From Desulfamplus sp. (GTDB lineage Bacteria > Desulfobacterota > Desulfobacteria > Desulfobacterales > Desulfobacteraceae): a DNA stretch of 64,000 nt. Below are positions 22,970 through 57,038 of this stretch, piece after piece. The position numbers and the translations under genes are program-made. Each line of letters starts with the position of its first letter. The first letter of the stretch is position 1. The notes beneath the pieces were generated by a model that worked only from the letters and a program-made list of their open reading frames with translations, was not told where the DNA came from and did no database searches. The stretch spans positions 1 through 64,000 of the forward strand of contig JADFZJ010000014.1 in assembly GCA_015232555.1 (NCBI GenBank). The letters run 5' to 3'.

Positions 22970-23840
22970 TCAACATAACCTCTAATTCCTCTTCATAAAG
23001 CCTTATAGACTCATCAATAATTGAATTATCTGGAAGACCACCTTTTAAGTCAGAAAAACGATACATCTCATTATCAAAAGATAAAACATCAATGGTTTCT
23101 TGTTTTTGTTTAGCTATAAGAGCTAATGTACCTATTGCCAAGCAATACATCAAAAATAGCTATCTTTTTAATACCTTCAGCAGTAACAGAAATTCCAAAA
23201 GAAGTCCGACCCTGCTTGTAAATCCAATTATCTGAAGAAGATTCATACTTGACTTTCCCTTGCAGTATTTTTTCAAGAGATTTTCTTGATTCTGCAAATT
23301 TAGGAAAATTCTTCCCTTTCTGAGTTTGGATTGAAAGAGCCTTTACAAGGTCATAGCACGTATCATTAAAACCAAAACTTTTATCTATCTCTCTTGATTT
23401 TCTGATATTGCCAAAAAGAGAAAGCACCTCTTTGGCTGGAATAAAGATTGAGTTATGTTCTCTTTTATCAATGGTTTTAGAACAATCAACAATTGTATTT
23501 TTTGTTTTCTCGCCAAAAGCAAAATGAACTTCTCCTCCGTCAATCGCAGCTTTAAAAAAAGTTTTTCTTTTACTCCAGTTGTTACCAAGTCTCCAAATTT
23601 TTCTACTTGAAAAACCCAATATAATTTATCAGCTAATATTGTTTCAAATTTTCTCGGGTCTTTACCCAATCCAAACTCTTCAATTGATTTAATAGCAGAA
23701 TAGAGTGCTTTTAAAAGAAATGTTTTGCCGCTGCCATTTGAGCCAATTATCAAATTCAACCTTGAAGGTTTATTCCAGATTAAATTCTTAATGGGTCCAA
23801 AGTTTCTAATTTCTACATTCTCAATCATATTGTAATCCAT
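22962..23840 (-). pseudogene. AAA/OLD-like ATPase remnant with frameshift and deletion
   Basis: Three reading frames together give one ATPase. The first (to 23385) has ENVEIRNFGPIKNL and Walker A IGSNGSGKTFLLKAL. Homology shifts to a second frame at a run of seven A/T bases (23554-23560), continuing as FFKAAIDGGEVHFAFGEKTK. At about 23150 it stops after DVLLGNRY and resumes in a third frame as KQKQETIDVLSFD to 22962. The Walker B region that should lie at the junction is absent. It therefore looks doubly broken. The homopolymer shift alone could be a sequencing error or slippage site; the lost Walker B segment could not. Confidence 0.75.
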
Positions 23841-23843
23841 TCT

Positions 23844-24122
23844 TCAGTTTATATTCAAATCTTCCTCTTGAATAAGCTCTATACCCTTATCACCAGCCTC
23901 AATGATTTTTTCTATCTTTTCTAAAGGCAGACTTGTAACAACTGCAATCTCATTAAGGGGCATATTAAAATTACATAGCTTTTTAATCATCTGGAATTTT
24001 TCTTTTATACGCCCTTTAGCCATTCCTTTAGCCATTCCTTTAGCCATTCCTTTAGCCATTCCTTTAGCAATCCCTTGAGCTTCCCATTCTTCTCTCCATT
24101 CGGTAAGTGTTTCTGCTAACAT
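23844..24122 (-). CDS. Probable internal gene for a short Rpn C-terminal protein (RpnS-like)
   Basis: An in-frame ATG at 24122 (Met247 of the long protein) is preceded by AAAGGAGG with eight bases of spacing, a near-ideal ribosome-binding site. Translation from here gives a 92-residue protein starting MLAETLTEWREEW, containing the GMAK repeats and the C-terminal tail. Gene-within-gene antitoxins of this kind have been described for Rpn nucleases. The site is seen directly; the function is from that precedent. Confidence 0.65.
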   Translation of the reverse strand: MLAETLTEWREEWEAQGIAKGMAKGMAKGMAKGMAKGRIKEKFQMIKKLCNFNMPLNEIAVVTSLPLEKIEKIIEAGDKGIELIQEEDLNIN

Positions 24123-24860
24123 AGAATCTACCTCCTTTAGTTCCTGAAATTCTGGAATATTATCATTTTTAAACCGAGACCTTAAAAGGCGGCTTAACCA
24201 TAAAGCAAATGTCCGCCTTATCTCTTGATTTTCTGGTTCTCCAAGATGTTCATGCAGCCTTGCTATATGTTCTCTTATCTCTTGTGTGCTGCGGCAACGC
24301 TCAAACCCGATTAATTCTGCTGTAAGATTAAAATCTGTGCTTTCTAAATTTTTGGCATCAACTCTGCCCTCATCTAAAAGCCAATACGAAAGATGCGGAG
24401 TAAACTTCTTTAAACTTTGATGCACAGGATTAATCAATTCACTAATCTCACAAGGACTATTCCACTCTGGCTTGCCATTGTAAATCACCATTGGCACTAC
24501 AGGCGGAAGAACATCTCCCTTTTTCAGATTCTGGCTGCGGATAATGTCCTGATATAAAAGACCAATATATGTCATAAGCCTTACAGCCATAAAGTAGTTA
24601 TCTGATGATTGAAATTCAAGGATAAGATAGAGATACAACCATTGTTCCCGAAATCTCAAACGCCAGATTTTATCGTCATGGCGTTCCCGCATATCATCAG
24701 TTACAAACGAAACGTTGACAGGCTCAAGCGTGGAAAAATCCATCTCCCAAACCCAATCCTCTTTTACAAAGCCTGTCAAAAGGTCTTTGACCAAATCTGG
24801 ATGAGAAAACAGCAGCTTGTAGCCTGTATCATGGGGCATGTTGTCTTTATCGTTTTTCAT
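23844..24860 (-). CDS. Rpn family recombination-promoting nuclease (transposase_31 type)
   Basis: A 338-residue protein with the Rpn/YhgA layout: N-terminal DTGYKLLFSHPDLVKDLL, then a PD-(D/E)xK nuclease core with Asp around D62-D63 and E82-x-Q84 in YLILEFQSSDNY, then VPMVIYNGKPEW. The C-terminal part holds five imperfect repeats of GMAK, made by a 12-bp tandem repeat, and a short helical tail. Rpn proteins are DNA nucleases; several act in phage defence and are controlled by a shorter protein made from the same gene. It lies within the type I island, four bases from hsdS and three from the AAA remnant. Confidence 0.85.
   Translation of the reverse strand: MKNDKDNMPHDTGYKLLFSHPDLVKDLLTGFVKEDWVWEMDFSTLEPVNVSFVTDDMRERHDDKIWRLRFREQWLYLYLILEFQSSDNYFMAVRLMTYIGLLYQDIIRSQNLKKGDVLPPVVPMVIYNGKPEWNSPCEISELINPVHQSLKKFTPHLSYWLLDEGRVDAKNLESTDFNLTAELIGFERCRSTQEIREHIARLHEHLGEPENQEIRRTFALWLSRLLRSRFKNDNIPEFQELKEVDSMLAETLTEWREEWEAQGIAKGMAKGMAKGMAKGMAKGRIKEKFQMIKKLCNFNMPLNEIAVVTSLPLEKIEKIIEAGDKGIELIQEEDLNIN
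24013..24072. repeat. 12-bp tandem repeat inside the Rpn gene
   Basis: Four exact copies of CCTTTAGCCATT and a fifth degenerate one. A change of unit number keeps the frame and adds or removes one GMAK unit from both the long and the short Rpn products. Confidence 0.9.
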
Positions 24861-51767: not shown

Positions 51768-51951
51768 TAAAATGTATCTTTGGGGTGTGGTTTTTGATTG
51801 ATGATTGATGAACATTCGTCTCTTATTGACATGAGCCTGTTTAGCTATTATTTTGGTTTATTTTTTGCATTACAAATTCTATTTATGAGTTTGTAATAAT
51901 ATGTATGTTATTTTTATTTTATTTTTTCTTTCAATGCAAAGGAATTGAATT

Positions 51952-53031
51952 ATGAATCGAATTTTCAAGATTTTTCTATGCTCTATGCTATTTTATGTAT
52001 TTGCAGCATCACACTCCTGGAGTGCTGACGCAGTTGAGCAAAAAAAGGAAGTTGTAAAAACTGCCTCTGTTTTTTTCCCTGAACCAGCTTATCAATTTGC
52101 TTCAATAGTTGATGGTGTGGAGGTAATTCACGATTTTGTGATTATGAACAAAGGAACAGATACCCTTCAAGTTCAGAAGGTTAAAACTGGTTGAGGGTGT
52201 GCAACTGTCTCTTATTCAAGAGAAATCCCTCCAGGTGGAGAGGGAAAAATATCAATAAAGGTTAATACAAGAGGATATGGCGGTCGTAAACTTATGAAAA
52301 CTATTGCTGTTATGACAAATGATAGCAAGAATCCAGAAATCAGCCTTACAGTATCAGGAAATGTTGATAAGTTTGTAACCATAACCCCTTCTGTTGTGCG
52401 GCTTAACGGCAAGGTTGGTGAAGAGTTGAAATCTATGGTTAAAGTTATACCAGAAGATAAATATCCATTTACAGTAACTAAAATCCGTGCTCAAGAAGGA
52501 AAAGATATAAAATATGAGCTTAAAGAAGAAAAATCTGTATCTGGAGGCAAGGAATACTCGGTTTCAGTTGAGAATCTTAAAAAAGATGCGGGTTTTTATT
52601 ATGATGTTTTGATTCTTGAAACTGATAGTAAAATTCAGCCTGAAATAAAGATCAATATTATGGCAAGACTTATCGATCCAAATCAGGAAAAAACACCTCT
52701 GCAAGGACTTAATGGAAATAATGGAAATACAGGGGTTTCAGTAAATGGCGGAGCAAATCAAATTCCTTTTGGAAAAGGAGCTGCTGGAAGTGAGACTGCT
52801 GATGGAGCTAAAAATAATAATTTTCTTGAAGTAATTCAAAAAATAAAACAACAGAATGCTCAAAAAGCAGATACAACACAAGGTGAAAATCCAAATTCTG
52901 CACAAGTGCAAAGTCAAAATGCACCTGTTCAAGACCCCAAAAGATCAGAAGAGCTAAAAAAGAAATTTGAAGAGCTTATAAGGCAGGCTCAGGAAAAACA
53001 GAAGGCTCAAGAGACTACAAAAAAAGAGTAG
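51952..53031 (+). CDS. DUF1573 exported protein, probable selenoprotein (UGA as selenocysteine at codon 81)
   Basis: The frame is open for 360 codons except for one TGA at 52192-52194. Read through, the product is 359 residues: a signal peptide (residues 1-26), a DUF1573 Ig-like domain, a second beta domain (about 140-235) and a Gln/Asn-rich, then charged helical tail. The TGA falls exactly where DUF1573 proteins have the first Cys of their CGC motif: KVKTG-U-GCATVSYS here, against a usual SCGCT. The domain continues normally after it (IPPGGEGKISIKVNTRG, MTNDSKNPEISLTVSGN). Codon 81 as Sec with Cys83 would make a U-G-C redox pair. A start follows AAAGGAATTGAATT. A point mutation is the alternative. 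A type II secretion gene set follows. Confidence 0.8.
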
Positions 53032-53204: not shown

Positions 53205-53678
53205 ATGCAGAAAAATCTTACGCAAAAAAACGTATATAAAGTTAATAACAATCAAATAAAAAACCATAAAGATCAAAGAGGCTTTACCCTGATAGAGATT
53301 ATGGTTGTAATTATCATTGTAGGGCTTTTATCAGCATTAGTTGCACCAAAGTTTTTTGGCAAAGTTGATCAGGCAAAGATAAAGACCACAAAGACCCAGA
53401 TTGAGCTTCTTGGTTCTGCTCTTGACAGTTTCCGTCTTGATAACGGCAGATATCCGACAACAGAAGAGGGATTAAACGCATTAAGAGACAATCCCGGAGA
53501 GCTGAAAAATTGGGACGGTCCCTATCTTCCAAAACCTGTGCCTAAAGATGCGTGGGATAATGAGTTTATATATGTCTCTCCAGGAGAACATGGTCAATAC
53601 GACCTTTTAAGCTATGGTGCAGATAATGCTCAAGGTGGCGAAGACAAGATGACTAAGGATATTGTGAGTTGGGAATAG
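53205..53678 (+). CDS. gspG: Type II secretion major pseudopilin GspG
   Basis: A 157-residue pseudopilin. The prepilin peptidase site is RG-FTLIEIMVVIIIVGLL, with a 26-residue basic leader that is longer than usual. The C-terminal part has the GspG blocks NGRYPTTEEGLNAL, WDGPYLPKPVPKDAWDNEF and YDLLSYGADN with the calcium-site acids. It forms the pseudopilus that drives secretion across the outer membrane. Its end overlaps gspE by 10 bases. Confidence 0.93.
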   Translation: MQKNLTQKNVYKVNNNQIKNHKDQRGFTLIEIMVVIIIVGLLSALVAPKFFGKVDQAKIKTTKTQIELLGSALDSFRLDNGRYPTTEEGLNALRDNPGELKNWDGPYLPKPVPKDAWDNEFIYVSPGEHGQYDLLSYGADNAQGGEDKMTKDIVSWE

Positions 53679-55201
53679 TAGATGAAATAGCTGAGATAGC
53701 TGAAAAAGATATTCCTGAAACTCCGCCTCAAGTTCTGCTGCTGCCTGTTCATTTTATGAAGAGATTCAGGTTTCTTCCTGTCAATGATTCTGAAGAGAGA
53801 CTTCAGGTAATCATGGCAGACCCGCTTGATTTTAATACCCGCGAAATTATAAGAAAAGCCTATTCAAAAAAGTTGGATGTTTACAAAGCCTCAAATGAGG
53901 TGGTGAGCCAGTACATTTACAGATGGTATGAAGCTGACGCTGACATGACTGGTGAAGAGGGGGCAGATGCTCTTAATTTATCTCTTGAAGATGCCCTGTG
54001 GGATGATCCTGAACAGCTGAAGGGAATGGCTACAGAAGCACCTGTTATAAGGCTTGTAAATCACATTATTAACCGTGCCTTAGAGCTTGGCGTCTCTGAT
54101 ATCCACATTGAGCCAAGACGTCATACTGTTTTGGTAAGATATAGGATTGATGGTGTTCTTCACGATCAGGAGAGTATATCCGTAAAGCTCAAAGCTGCCA
54201 TAATCTCAAGAATCAAACTTATGGCAAAACTTGATATTGCAGAGAGAAGGCTTCCTCAGGACGGCAGAATTAAAATAAAAGCTGGACATGATGAAGTTGA
54301 TATTCGTGTATCCACAATTCCCACCCATTTTGGAGAGAGTATTGTTTTAAGGCTTCTTAATAAAGAGAACGTCTCTTTAGATCTTAAGAAATTAGGATTT
54401 GATGATACTCTATTGAAAAAATTCAGGTCTGTAATATCAATGCCGTTTGGAATTTTATTGGTTACAGGTCCTACAGGTTCGGGCAAAACAACAACCCTTT
54501 ATGCAGCATTAAGCGAAATAAACACACCTGATAAAAAAATTGTAACGGTAGAGGATCCTGTTGAATACCAGATGGATGGAGTAAATCAGGTACAGGTGCA
54601 ATCCTCGATTGGGTTGACCTTTGCTCATACACTGCGATCTTTTCTCCGCCACGATCCTGATGTTATGTTGATAGGAGAGATAAGAGACAGCGAGACTGCT
54701 GAAATTGCGGTTCAGGCAGCATTGACAGGACACATGGTATTTTCCACGCTTCATACAAATGACGCAGCAGGAGCAGTAACTCGCCTTGAGGATATGGGAA
54801 TTGAACGCTTCATGATCTCCTCTTCCCTTGTTGGCGTACTTGCCCAGCGTTTAGTGAGAAAAATCTGCCCTAACTGTTCACGACAGATAACGCTATCCTC
54901 GGAACAGCTTGAATCTCTTGCACTTGATTTTGATGTTGCATCAGACAAATTAACACCCGCTTTTTTGAGGGGAGAAGGGTGCAAATTGTGCGGCGAAACA
55001 GGTTATAAAGGGAGGATTGGAATATTTGAGCTGATGGTTCTTGACGATGAGCTTCAAGGTGAAGTAGTCGCTGGTGCTGACAGAAATCGCTTATTTAAAA
55101 AAGCTATTTCAAAAGGTATGATATCACTTAAAATGGATGGTATTCACAAGGTAAAACAGGGGCTTACCACTTATGAAGAGGTCTTGCGGGTGTCCAGATA
55201 A
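53669..55201 (+). CDS. gspE: Type II secretion ATPase GspE
   Basis: A 510-residue cytoplasmic ATPase. Motifs: VSDIHIEPRRHTVLVRYRID (Asp box region), Walker A GPTGSGKTTTLYAAL, Walker B MLIGEIRDSETAEIA, His box STLHTNDAA, and a tetracysteine CPNC...CKLC. Start is a TTG at 53669, overlapping gspG; no ATG or GTG in frame lies nearby. The N1 domain is short. Confidence 0.93.
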   Translation: MGIVDEIAEIAEKDIPETPPQVLLLPVHFMKRFRFLPVNDSEERLQVIMADPLDFNTREIIRKAYSKKLDVYKASNEVVSQYIYRWYEADADMTGEEGADALNLSLEDALWDDPEQLKGMATEAPVIRLVNHIINRALELGVSDIHIEPRRHTVLVRYRIDGVLHDQESISVKLKAAIISRIKLMAKLDIAERRLPQDGRIKIKAGHDEVDIRVSTIPTHFGESIVLRLLNKENVSLDLKKLGFDDTLLKKFRSVISMPFGILLVTGPTGSGKTTTLYAALSEINTPDKKIVTVEDPVEYQMDGVNQVQVQSSIGLTFAHTLRSFLRHDPDVMLIGEIRDSETAEIAVQAALTGHMVFSTLHTNDAAGAVTRLEDMGIERFMISSSLVGVLAQRLVRKICPNCSRQITLSSEQLESLALDFDVASDKLTPAFLRGEGCKLCGETGYKGRIGIFELMVLDDELQGEVVAGADRNRLFKKAISKGMISLKMDGIHKVKQGLTTYEEVLRVSR

Positions 55202-55267
55202 GATATTTGATAGCTCAATTCACTGTAAATTATATAATGCTGTAATAGTAATAGAGGTTGTTCGCTG

Positions 55268-56488
55268 ATGCCACAGTTCAGATTTGAAGCCATAAATCCT
55301 GATGGCAAAAAAGTTATAGATACCATTGAGGCACGAGACAGGGATGAAATTTTTCTGATGCTTCAGGCAAGAGGGGCTGTTCTGTTACGCTGGCTTGATG
55401 GAAAATCATCTAATGGAATAGGCAGCGGATTAAAACTCTTCTCTACTGGACGCAGTTTAAATAATGCCCGTCTTTTGCAGCTTACCTCTGATCTTGCCCA
55501 CCTTTTCAGTTCAGGACTTCCTATTGACCGTGCCTTATCTATTGCAGGCAGTGCCACATCTGACTCAAAAATTAGGGCAATGACGGTCTATCTTCAGGAT
55601 GCTCTTAAAAAAGGTACAAATCTTTCTGATGCAATGGCTGAAAAACCTTATGATTTTAACGATCTTTATGTGAATATGGTGAGAGTCGGAGAAATGGGCG
55701 GCATTCTCCCCTCTGTAATGGAGAGGCTTTCTGAATTTATTGGAAGGACAGAGGAGATTAAAAAATATGTAATCTCATCTTCTATCTATCCTGCAATTTT
55801 ACTTTCAGTTGGATTTTTATCACTTCTCGTTATTTTAGGATTTGTTGTGCCCAAATTTGCGGGTATCTTTGCAGATATGGGGCAGCAGATTCCGCTTTCC
55901 ACACAGATTTTGTTAGAGATCAGCAATTTTTTAAGAGTCTGGTGGTGGCTGCTTCTCTCTGGTTTTATTATACTTGCTATTTTTTTATGGCGTTTCCTGA
56001 AAACCGAACACGGTAAAAACATCTCTGACAAAAATATGCTGAAAATTCCATATATTGGCGATGTGATGCTTGATATTGAGATGAGCCGATTCTCCAGAAC
56101 TCTTGGCACTTTGATTAAAAGCGGAGTTCCACTGATGAAGGCGTTACATATTGTGAAGGCTGTAGTTTCAAACAGCCAGGTTAAAGATGCTGTAGAGCAC
56201 ATTTACAGACAAGTTAAAGAGGGTAGAAGCGTAAGTTCTCTTATGCGGGAGCGTAAAATATTTCCTCCGCTTGTGGTTCAGATGGTCTCGCTTGGCGAAG
56301 AGACCGGCAAAATCGGTGATATGCTTGTTTCTGTAGCAGAGGATTTGGATAGAAAAATTCAATCAAAGGTTAAAACCTACCTCTCACTTTTAGAACCATT
56401 CTCTATTCTTTTTCTTGGACTTCTTATCGGCGGTGTGGTTGTCTCCATGCTGACCACAATTTTTGGTGTTAATGAAATACAGTTCTAA
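55268..56488 (+). CDS. gspF: Type II secretion inner-membrane protein GspF
   Basis: A 406-residue protein with two GspF domains, each with a hydrophobic segment. Motifs: DLAHLFSSGLPIDRALSI, NMVRVGEMGGILPSVMERL, and in the second half RTLGTLIKSGVPLMKALHI and MVSLGEETGKIGDML. It is the platform for pseudopilus assembly. It overlaps gspH by 17 bases. Confidence 0.93.
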   Translation: MPQFRFEAINPDGKKVIDTIEARDRDEIFLMLQARGAVLLRWLDGKSSNGIGSGLKLFSTGRSLNNARLLQLTSDLAHLFSSGLPIDRALSIAGSATSDSKIRAMTVYLQDALKKGTNLSDAMAEKPYDFNDLYVNMVRVGEMGGILPSVMERLSEFIGRTEEIKKYVISSSIYPAILLSVGFLSLLVILGFVVPKFAGIFADMGQQIPLSTQILLEISNFLRVWWWLLLSGFIILAIFLWRFLKTEHGKNISDKNMLKIPYIGDVMLDIEMSRFSRTLGTLIKSGVPLMKALHIVKAVVSNSQVKDAVEHIYRQVKEGRSVSSLMRERKIFPPLVVQMVSLGEETGKIGDMLVSVAEDLDRKIQSKVKTYLSLLEPFSILFLGLLIGGVVVSMLTTIFGVNEIQF

Positions 56489-57038
56489 GTTCCTCATCGG
56501 TGCAAAACGTAATTCAAAAGGTTTTACTCTTATTGAGATTACAGTTGTGATAATACTTGTTGCCATTGCAGGCTCTCTTGTATTGATGAACATAGGGCAG
56601 TCAGGAAGAATGAAGAAGAGCCGCATGTTTGCATCTGAAATGTTATCTATGTGCAAAAAAGCACGAATCACTGCTATAACTAAAGGTGTTCCAGCATGTC
56701 TGACCATATCATCTGAATCAAGAGAGTGCCACATTGGCTTTGCTGATGAGGTTATCTCTGACCCTATTTCTAATACAGTTGATGATAATTCTAATACAAC
56801 CGATGATAATGAAGAGAGCAGATCAGACTCAAGTAGTCTTAAAATACCTGAAAATATTCTGCTTGAAGGAGAAAATATAAAAGTAGATTCGAATGGTGTA
56901 TATTATATCTGCTTTTATCCTGACGGCAGTTCTGGTGGAGGTATTTTAACGATATCTGTTGAAAATGAGTTTGAGTTTACATTTCAAGTTGATATGCTCA
57001 CAGGAAGCGTCAGAGAGGTTATAGATTCTGATTCATGA
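56472..57038 (+). CDS. gspH: Type II secretion minor pseudopilin GspH
   Basis: A 188-residue GspH/FimT-type pseudopilin. The cleavage site is KG-FTLIEITVVIILVAIAG. The globular part has CKKARITAITKGVPACLTIS and a final VDMLTGSVREVI. An Asp/Asn/Ser-rich insert lies at about residues 103-122. I choose the ATG at 56472; a TTG at 56463 is possible. No gspI, gspJ or gspK follows, so the operon is split or partial here. Confidence 0.85.
   Translation: MKYSSKFLIGAKRNSKGFTLIEITVVIILVAIAGSLVLMNIGQSGRMKKSRMFASEMLSMCKKARITAITKGVPACLTISSESRECHIGFADEVISDPISNTVDDNSNTTDDNEESRSDSSSLKIPENILLEGENIKVDSNGVYYICFYPDGSSGGGILTISVENEFEFTFQVDMLTGSVREVIDSDS

Follow-up and report, generated by a model that had tools for sequence, protein, structure and literature searches.

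Selenoproteins with a DUF1573 domain have been tabulated repeatedly. A GOS table from 2008 lists OS_HP2 under pfam07610 with a UxC motif (PMC2398784), a selenoprotein table from 2022 lists DUF1573 with UGC and credits it to that paper's reference 63, the 2007 work of Zhang and Gladyshev on the Olavius algarvensis symbiont (PMC9312934), and a 2026 table again gives DUF1573 with UGC, crediting its reference 60, which is cited there for the Olavius symbiont too (PMC13188914). In the parts of the literature covered by our searches, we found no function for the DUF1573/OS_HP2 selenoprotein. In the sections of PMC13188914 available to us, the bSECIS consensus is given as a hairpin with G in the first two loop positions at 16 to 37 nt from the UGA, and some genuine selenoprotein genes are said to fail the bSECIS model. 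A literature search by topic, limited to the terms used and to the accessible text of the papers, returned no published description of a two-hairpin bacterial SECIS.

We analyzed a window of 64,000 nucleotides from a Desulfamplus genome that contains a gene of this family (Table 1). The reading frame has a single internal stop, a TGA at codon 81, and terminates with TAG. The TGA sits exactly at the first Cys of the conserved CGC motif (context KVKTG-U-GC-ATVSY), giving the U-G-C pair that an earlier, sequence-only reading of this DNA had described. The PF07610 match spans the TGA and scores 66.9 bits against a gathering cut-off of 26.1, and the NCBIfam model NF041425 ("OS_HP2 family (seleno)protein") scores 141.3 bits against a curated cut-off of 100. 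The window gene therefore shares the family model, the U-x-C motif, and the apparent use of Sec for the first Cys with the described family; it differs in that the C-terminal tail of the Desulfamplus members is longer than that of most aligned copies, and in the tandem hairpins of these genes, which are not described in the portions of the literature searched. The earlier reading had called the protein a probable new selenoprotein, a claim that does not hold because OS_HP2, pfam07610, and UxC already stand in the 2008 table, followed by the later tables and NF041425. We regard the gene as a further member of a published family, with low novelty for the protein and moderate interest for the RNA. 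The same reading had expected annotation pipelines to split the gene in two. Plain ORF calling does so, producing pieces of 80 and 245 aa, whereas NF041425 now passes the protein, leaving the expectation partly true today. The case is still useful, as the order abounds in DUF1573 genes of this kind and standard ORF prediction breaks the gene apart. The closest named relatives are Desulfamplus MAGs (57 to 62% identity) and D. magnetovallimortis (53%), among 324 relatives found, of which the best 80 were kept.

Table 1. Features of the putative selenoprotein gene and its surroundings, with positions in the window
Feature	Position	Strand	Basis
Putative OS_HP2/DUF1573 selenoprotein gene, 359 codons plus TAG	51952..53031	+	Reading frame, PF07610, NF041425
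Probable export signal, residues ~1-25	51952..52026	+	By eye; helix 4-19 in model
DUF1573 domain, residues 43-138	52078..52365	+	PF07610, NF041425
Predicted Sec codon TGA, residue 81	52192..52194	+	Sequence and alignment of 111 copies
Cys83 codon, presumed resolving partner in U-G-C	52198..52200	+	Cys codon in 93/94 Sec copies
Hairpin A (TCTCTT-ATTC-AAGAGA), usual bacterial SECIS position	52208..52223	+	Folding, shuffles
Hairpin B (TCCCTCC-AGGT-GGAG-A-GGGA), second conserved hairpin	52226..52245	+	Pairing by eye; MFE draws larger loop
Second beta-strand domain, residues 142-241	52375..52674	+	Predicted structure
Downstream neighbor gspG (type II secretion)	53205..53678	+	Common to 5 Desulfamplus loci, best 80 of 324 relatives

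A search of the genome for selA, selB, selC, and selD, which the earlier reading had named as a check, found the complete set: a tRNA-Sec (selC) with anticodon tca at 74.4 bits, selB at 376.7 bits, selA at 577.8 bits, and selD at 364.5 bits. The selD gene itself has an in-frame TGA (G000:C21:14120-15043), as does an fdhA gene (one TGA; G000:C35:33308-35311), and the genome therefore probably encodes further selenoproteins. A whole-genome search detected two DUF1573 copies, the window gene with its one TGA and a paralogue on contig C73 without TGA, which has TGT at the Sec-codon column.

We aligned 111 copies of the gene, made up of the Cys paralogue in the same genome, the top 30 matches, and another 80 of the matches listed; together they represent 93 genomes from 52 families within one order. 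At the Sec-codon column, 94 copies have TGA, 11 have TGC, 6 have TGT, and none has any other codon, and 49 of the 52 families include a TGA copy. Among the 94 Sec copies, 93 retain the second Cys; the sole exception, L099, reads UAS. A second collection, here called the named set, consists of the best 80 of the 324 relatives, found via a peptide pattern in the region coding for hairpin B; it shares organisms with the 111-copy set and is no independent replicate. Within it, 79 loci have TGA and one (L171) has TGT, and two Olavius-associated Delta symbionts and D. magnetovallimortis are among these best 80 of 324, all three with TGA at this codon. A quick tree has the Sec/Cys label switching at least eight times, with four of these switches forced by supported branches.

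With the DUF1573 protein as query (C written for U), a match was obtained in 127 of 145 genomes of the order, our own included, and most of the matches listed have one TGA. In a draw from the phylum, matches were obtained in 108 of 297 genomes, and many of those from outside the order have a TGA, counted at any position. SelB is above cut-off in 127 of the 145 genomes of the order and gives some match at 1e-40 in 138, and SelD is above cut-off in 125 (own genome included in each case of a cut-off); with SelB so widespread, an association between TGA copies and selB over genomes is uninformative. Three genomes have TGA at the site and no SelB match at 1e-40 (G012, G078, and G117, loci L097, L110, and L053, with completeness of 78, 68, and 91%, respectively). 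Among the matches listed, SelB-lacking G096 has solely a Cys DUF1573 copy (L066); a TGA does occur in one FdhA gene of this genome, so the genome may just be incomplete.

Two other explanations of the TGA have to be weighed. If it were a true stop, the locus would be a decaying gene or two separate proteins, as the two pieces returned by ORF calling would have it. We consider this very improbable, given that no codon besides TGA, TGC, or TGT occurs at the site, that every one of the 111 copies stays open for 156 or more codons beyond the site (157 or more in the 94 with TGA), that the PF07610 match crosses the TGA, and that RNA structure past the TGA appears to be selected in Sec and not in Cys copies. 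Decay, which the earlier reading had named as the outcome that would overturn its proposal, is ruled out for practical purposes by the spread of TGA copies across families. Genome-wide reassignment of TGA, for example to Trp or Gly, for which we saw no supporting evidence, has a still smaller, practically negligible probability: homologues otherwise carry only Cys at the site, and the tRNA with anticodon tca that is present is tRNA-Sec. The full Sec machinery, the strict exchange of TGA and Cys codons, and the apparently selected RNA after the TGA all support the proposal that Sec replaces the first Cys of CGC. Judged from these sequence comparisons, residue 81 is almost certainly Sec, and the window gene very probably encodes a selenoprotein of the known OS_HP2/DUF1573 family.

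We also scanned the window for frames that are open both before and after a TGA, which gave 15 other cases. The longest, at 23846 on the minus strand, would join a Transposase_31 protein to an AAA-type protein, and we read this TGA as a normal gene end. This pair occupies 23385-24860, where the AAA-type ATPase gene comes directly after the Transposase_31 (YhgA-like) gene in the same frame; the arrangement has the look of a read-through candidate but is best taken as two ordinary genes. The next two longest TGA-spanning frames in the window have no Pfam match.

Both stems that the earlier reading had pointed out downstream of the TGA are present. The TCTCTT/AAGAGA stem of hairpin A begins 14 nt past the TGA (52208-52213 paired with 52218-52223), and the CTCC-AGGT-GGAG stem within hairpin B lies at 52229-52240, with 38 nt between the TGA and the loop. 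We compared RNA folding energies with those of shuffles drawing synonymous codons from the same gene. In fixed windows, the mean shuffle z in Sec genes (n = 94) was -2.22 for A and -1.66 for B, and in Cys genes (n = 17) it was -0.36 and +0.12. Averaging over 60 groups (genera within the window's family, and other families taken whole) gave -2.25 and -1.69, and the 79 Sec loci of the named set (from the best 80 of 324) gave -2.40 and -2.38. A sliding 8-codon profile of the Sec genes dips at window starts +3 to +5 (-2.25 to -2.43) and again at +10 to +12 (-1.07 to -1.85), with shoulders of -0.71 at +2 and -0.49 at +9 and all remaining values between -0.37 and +0.40; the profile of the Cys copies stays between -0.78 and +0.25. 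Two of six control windows in the Sec genes are slightly negative (-0.46 at codons -10 to -3, p 0.01; -0.37 at +46 to +54, p 0.005), both far smaller than A and B, and the other four range from -0.18 to +0.06. Shuffle z and sliding profile both place conserved RNA structure directly past the UGA of Sec genes. An Rfam search of 51900-52700 gave six matches, all far under their gathering scores.

Covariation is clear in hairpin A. When one copy per group was counted (47 of the 60 copies have the residues concerned), the identity of residue +5 (Val or Ala) was linked to the wobble base of Arg/Lys +9 (26/3/0/18, p 2.9e-10): Val at +5 goes with wobble A at +9 in 26 of 29 copies, and Ala with wobble G in 18 of 18. 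The corresponding counts are 36/6/0/24 in the full Sec set and 41/11/0/21 in the named set (from the best 80 of 324), and the Cys copies show no link (3/2/4/2). Hairpin B covaries more weakly, with the wobble positions of Ile +11 and Glu +16 at 36/5/11/26 (p 1.5e-7, uncorrected for relatedness) and Pro +12 against the wobble position of Gly +15 at 4/14/23/9 (p 0.001). In the named set (best 80 of 324), these positions are nearly invariant (70/0/5/1, p 0.08; 0/20/0/20, p 1).

We also counted hairpins by energy thresholds that we set ourselves at -3 kcal/mol for A and -5 kcal/mol for B. Hairpin B reaches its threshold in 93 of 94 Sec genes and in 79 of 79 from the named set (best 80 of 324), hairpin A in 87 of 94 and 78 of 79; among the 17 Cys copies, 5 reach the threshold for A and 7 that for B. 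Three Cys copies of the window's own clade (L025, L108, and L109) keep B and have no A. In tree-based independent pairs of hairpin loss with Sec/Cys change, of which four lie on supported branches, changes in the same direction number about 2.0 for A, 1.7 for B, and 2.8 for both, and changes in the opposite direction almost never occur; with a quick tree and four pairs, this is not significant. Taken from sequence comparisons, selection on both hairpins in Sec genes is likely.

How these hairpins relate to the published consensus is mixed. The window gene shares with it a hairpin directly past the UGA, with A at the usual position; it differs in that A has no loop G, the B loop lies 38 nt away, and there are two conserved hairpins instead of one (consensus as given in the accessible sections of PMC13188914). 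The published SECIS consensus is matched in position by A and in loop by B. The earlier reading had judged neither stem a perfect bacterial SECIS, and indeed no hairpin of the window gene satisfies the loop and spacing rules. Scoring only uninterrupted stems of at least 4 pairs and leaving the energy rule aside, we found hairpins that satisfy these rules in 57 of 94 Sec genes, 23 of 79 Sec genes from the named set (best 80 of 324), and 9 of 17 Cys genes.

We considered three accounts of which hairpin SelB reads. One is that A alone is the SECIS and that B is an accessory, acting in pausing, readthrough, or stability, or is unrelated to Sec insertion, for which the chances seem about even. In relatives, SelD genes (25 of 30 loci; five were dropped because the TGA lay outside the SelD frame, and L232 of those kept looks wrong-frame) and FdhA genes (29 of 30; one without the Sec motif was left out) show selected structure solely at A's position, apart from a weak value in FdhA at codon 14 (-0.46, p 0.04), and the cleaner covariation is in A. 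Against this account, A has G in the first two loop positions in just 11 of 94 Sec genes and 1 of 79 from the named set (best 80 of 324), and B passes its energy threshold in more Sec genes than A does.

The opposite assignment, in which SelB binds B as the SECIS and A serves as a spacer helix bringing B near the ribosome, is possible but rather unlikely. The B loop has G in the first two positions in 89 of 94 Sec genes and 73 of 79 from the named set (best 80 of 324), as the model in the available part of PMC13188914 asks, and its distance to the UGA is mostly 37 to 39 nt, which is at the upper limit of the published 16 to 37 or over it. The loop G is weak evidence, however, because conserved Gly codons supply it and it also occurs in 12 of the 16 Cys copies with a B loop; the three Cys copies that keep B without A count against this assignment as well. 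The third and most novel account, also with about equal chances of being right or wrong, is that the OS_HP2/DUF1573 mRNA carries a bipartite SECIS, with tandem hairpins selected in Sec genes across the order and not favored in Cys copies, in which either a spacer helix would place a distal SelB-binding hairpin or a second hairpin would tune Sec insertion of this protein. If true, a bipartite SECIS would be an architecture beyond the published one-hairpin model, and the presence of two hairpins may be the reason that this DUF1573 gene is missed by a consensus SECIS search.

We modeled the protein with AlphaFold2 from 32 sequences, all chosen Sec copies in which C was written for U; the mean pLDDT was 82.3 and the pTM 0.59. 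The two strand-rich domains score near or above 90, residues U81 and C83 sit in the turn that joins strands 72-79 and 84-88, and the tail is weak except for helices 291-305 and 329-358. Invariant residues in the 32 copies are F49, N66, G68, L72, U81, G82, C83, I92, G98, T106, and G108, with His60 nearly so, a pattern that speaks neither for nor against a metal site. The protein also matches the HYDIN/ASPM-SPD-2 Ig-like model PF22544 (41.3 bits against a cut-off of 25.5), and Foldseek aligned the predicted structure with ciliary HYDIN/ASPM-like chains (9ijj and 7sqc) and with Porphyromonas gingivalis 2qsv (E 1.1e-8). The likeness is of fold only and gives no basis for transferring a function: among the 50 matches listed, identity is 8 to 16%, and TM-scores by query length are 0.17 to 0.33, therefore single domains match and not the whole protein. 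A PDB sequence search returned no chain up to E 1.

From these features, we infer Sec insertion itself, a selenenylsulfide, export, and a redox role. The gene product would be an exported two-domain DUF1573 protein of the OS_HP2 family, with UGA81 decoded as Sec by SelB and tRNA-Sec, aided by the two-hairpin RNA just downstream. U81 and C83, in the turn of an Ig-like (HYDIN/ASPM-SPD-2-like) domain, would most likely form a selenenylsulfide/selenol pair that could engage in electron or disulfide exchange beyond the cytoplasm. A thiol-disulfide role is in keeping with a U-x-C pair on an Ig-like domain that is exported; the U-x-C mechanism and the idea of export draw on general background knowledge. 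An exported redox function is a tentative proposal, with somewhat less than an even chance.

The gene neighborhood gave little guide to function. Among the best 80 of 324 relatives, the commonest downstream neighbor is a HAD-type hydrolase (54 of 80, median gap 9 bp) and the commonest upstream neighbor a PriA-like helicase (35 of 80), names that we checked on matching genes beside Cys copies; these say little, and no single function is indicated. Type II secretion genes follow only in the five Desulfamplus loci (among the best 80 of 324 named relatives). In the window, they occupy 53205-57038, where GspG exceeds its cut-off, GspE falls just short (622.8 against 630.25 bits), and GspF- and GspH-like genes were recognized by eye.

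An HdrA-like gene lies within 6 kb of 8 of 17 Cys copies and of 0 of 79 Sec copies (from the best 80 of 324; Fisher 1.8e-7), and FdhA is also within 6 kb in four of those eight; this comparison is confounded because a Sec-type profile was used to collect the Sec set, the flanking sequence there totals 10 kb at the median, and Sec and Cys copies belong partly to different paralogue lines. At L273, L282, L283, and L284 (copies L066, L108, L109, and L113), a Cys-type DUF1573 gene lies 121 to 256 bp from an FdhA gene, with an HdrA-like gene near. The FdhA near L066, L108, and L109 has Cys in place of Sec, and that of L113 is at 178 bp. Possibly, the Cys DUF1573 and the FdhA/HdrA-like genes make up a selenium-free spare set. 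Some relatives also have a second, lower-scoring SelB-like gene (G044:C1:576722-578614, G098:C31:144350-146230, and G133:C1:1778894-1780000); the one in G044 adjoins a Cys DUF1573 copy (L118), and those in G098 and G133 are approximately 7 and 12 kb from one.
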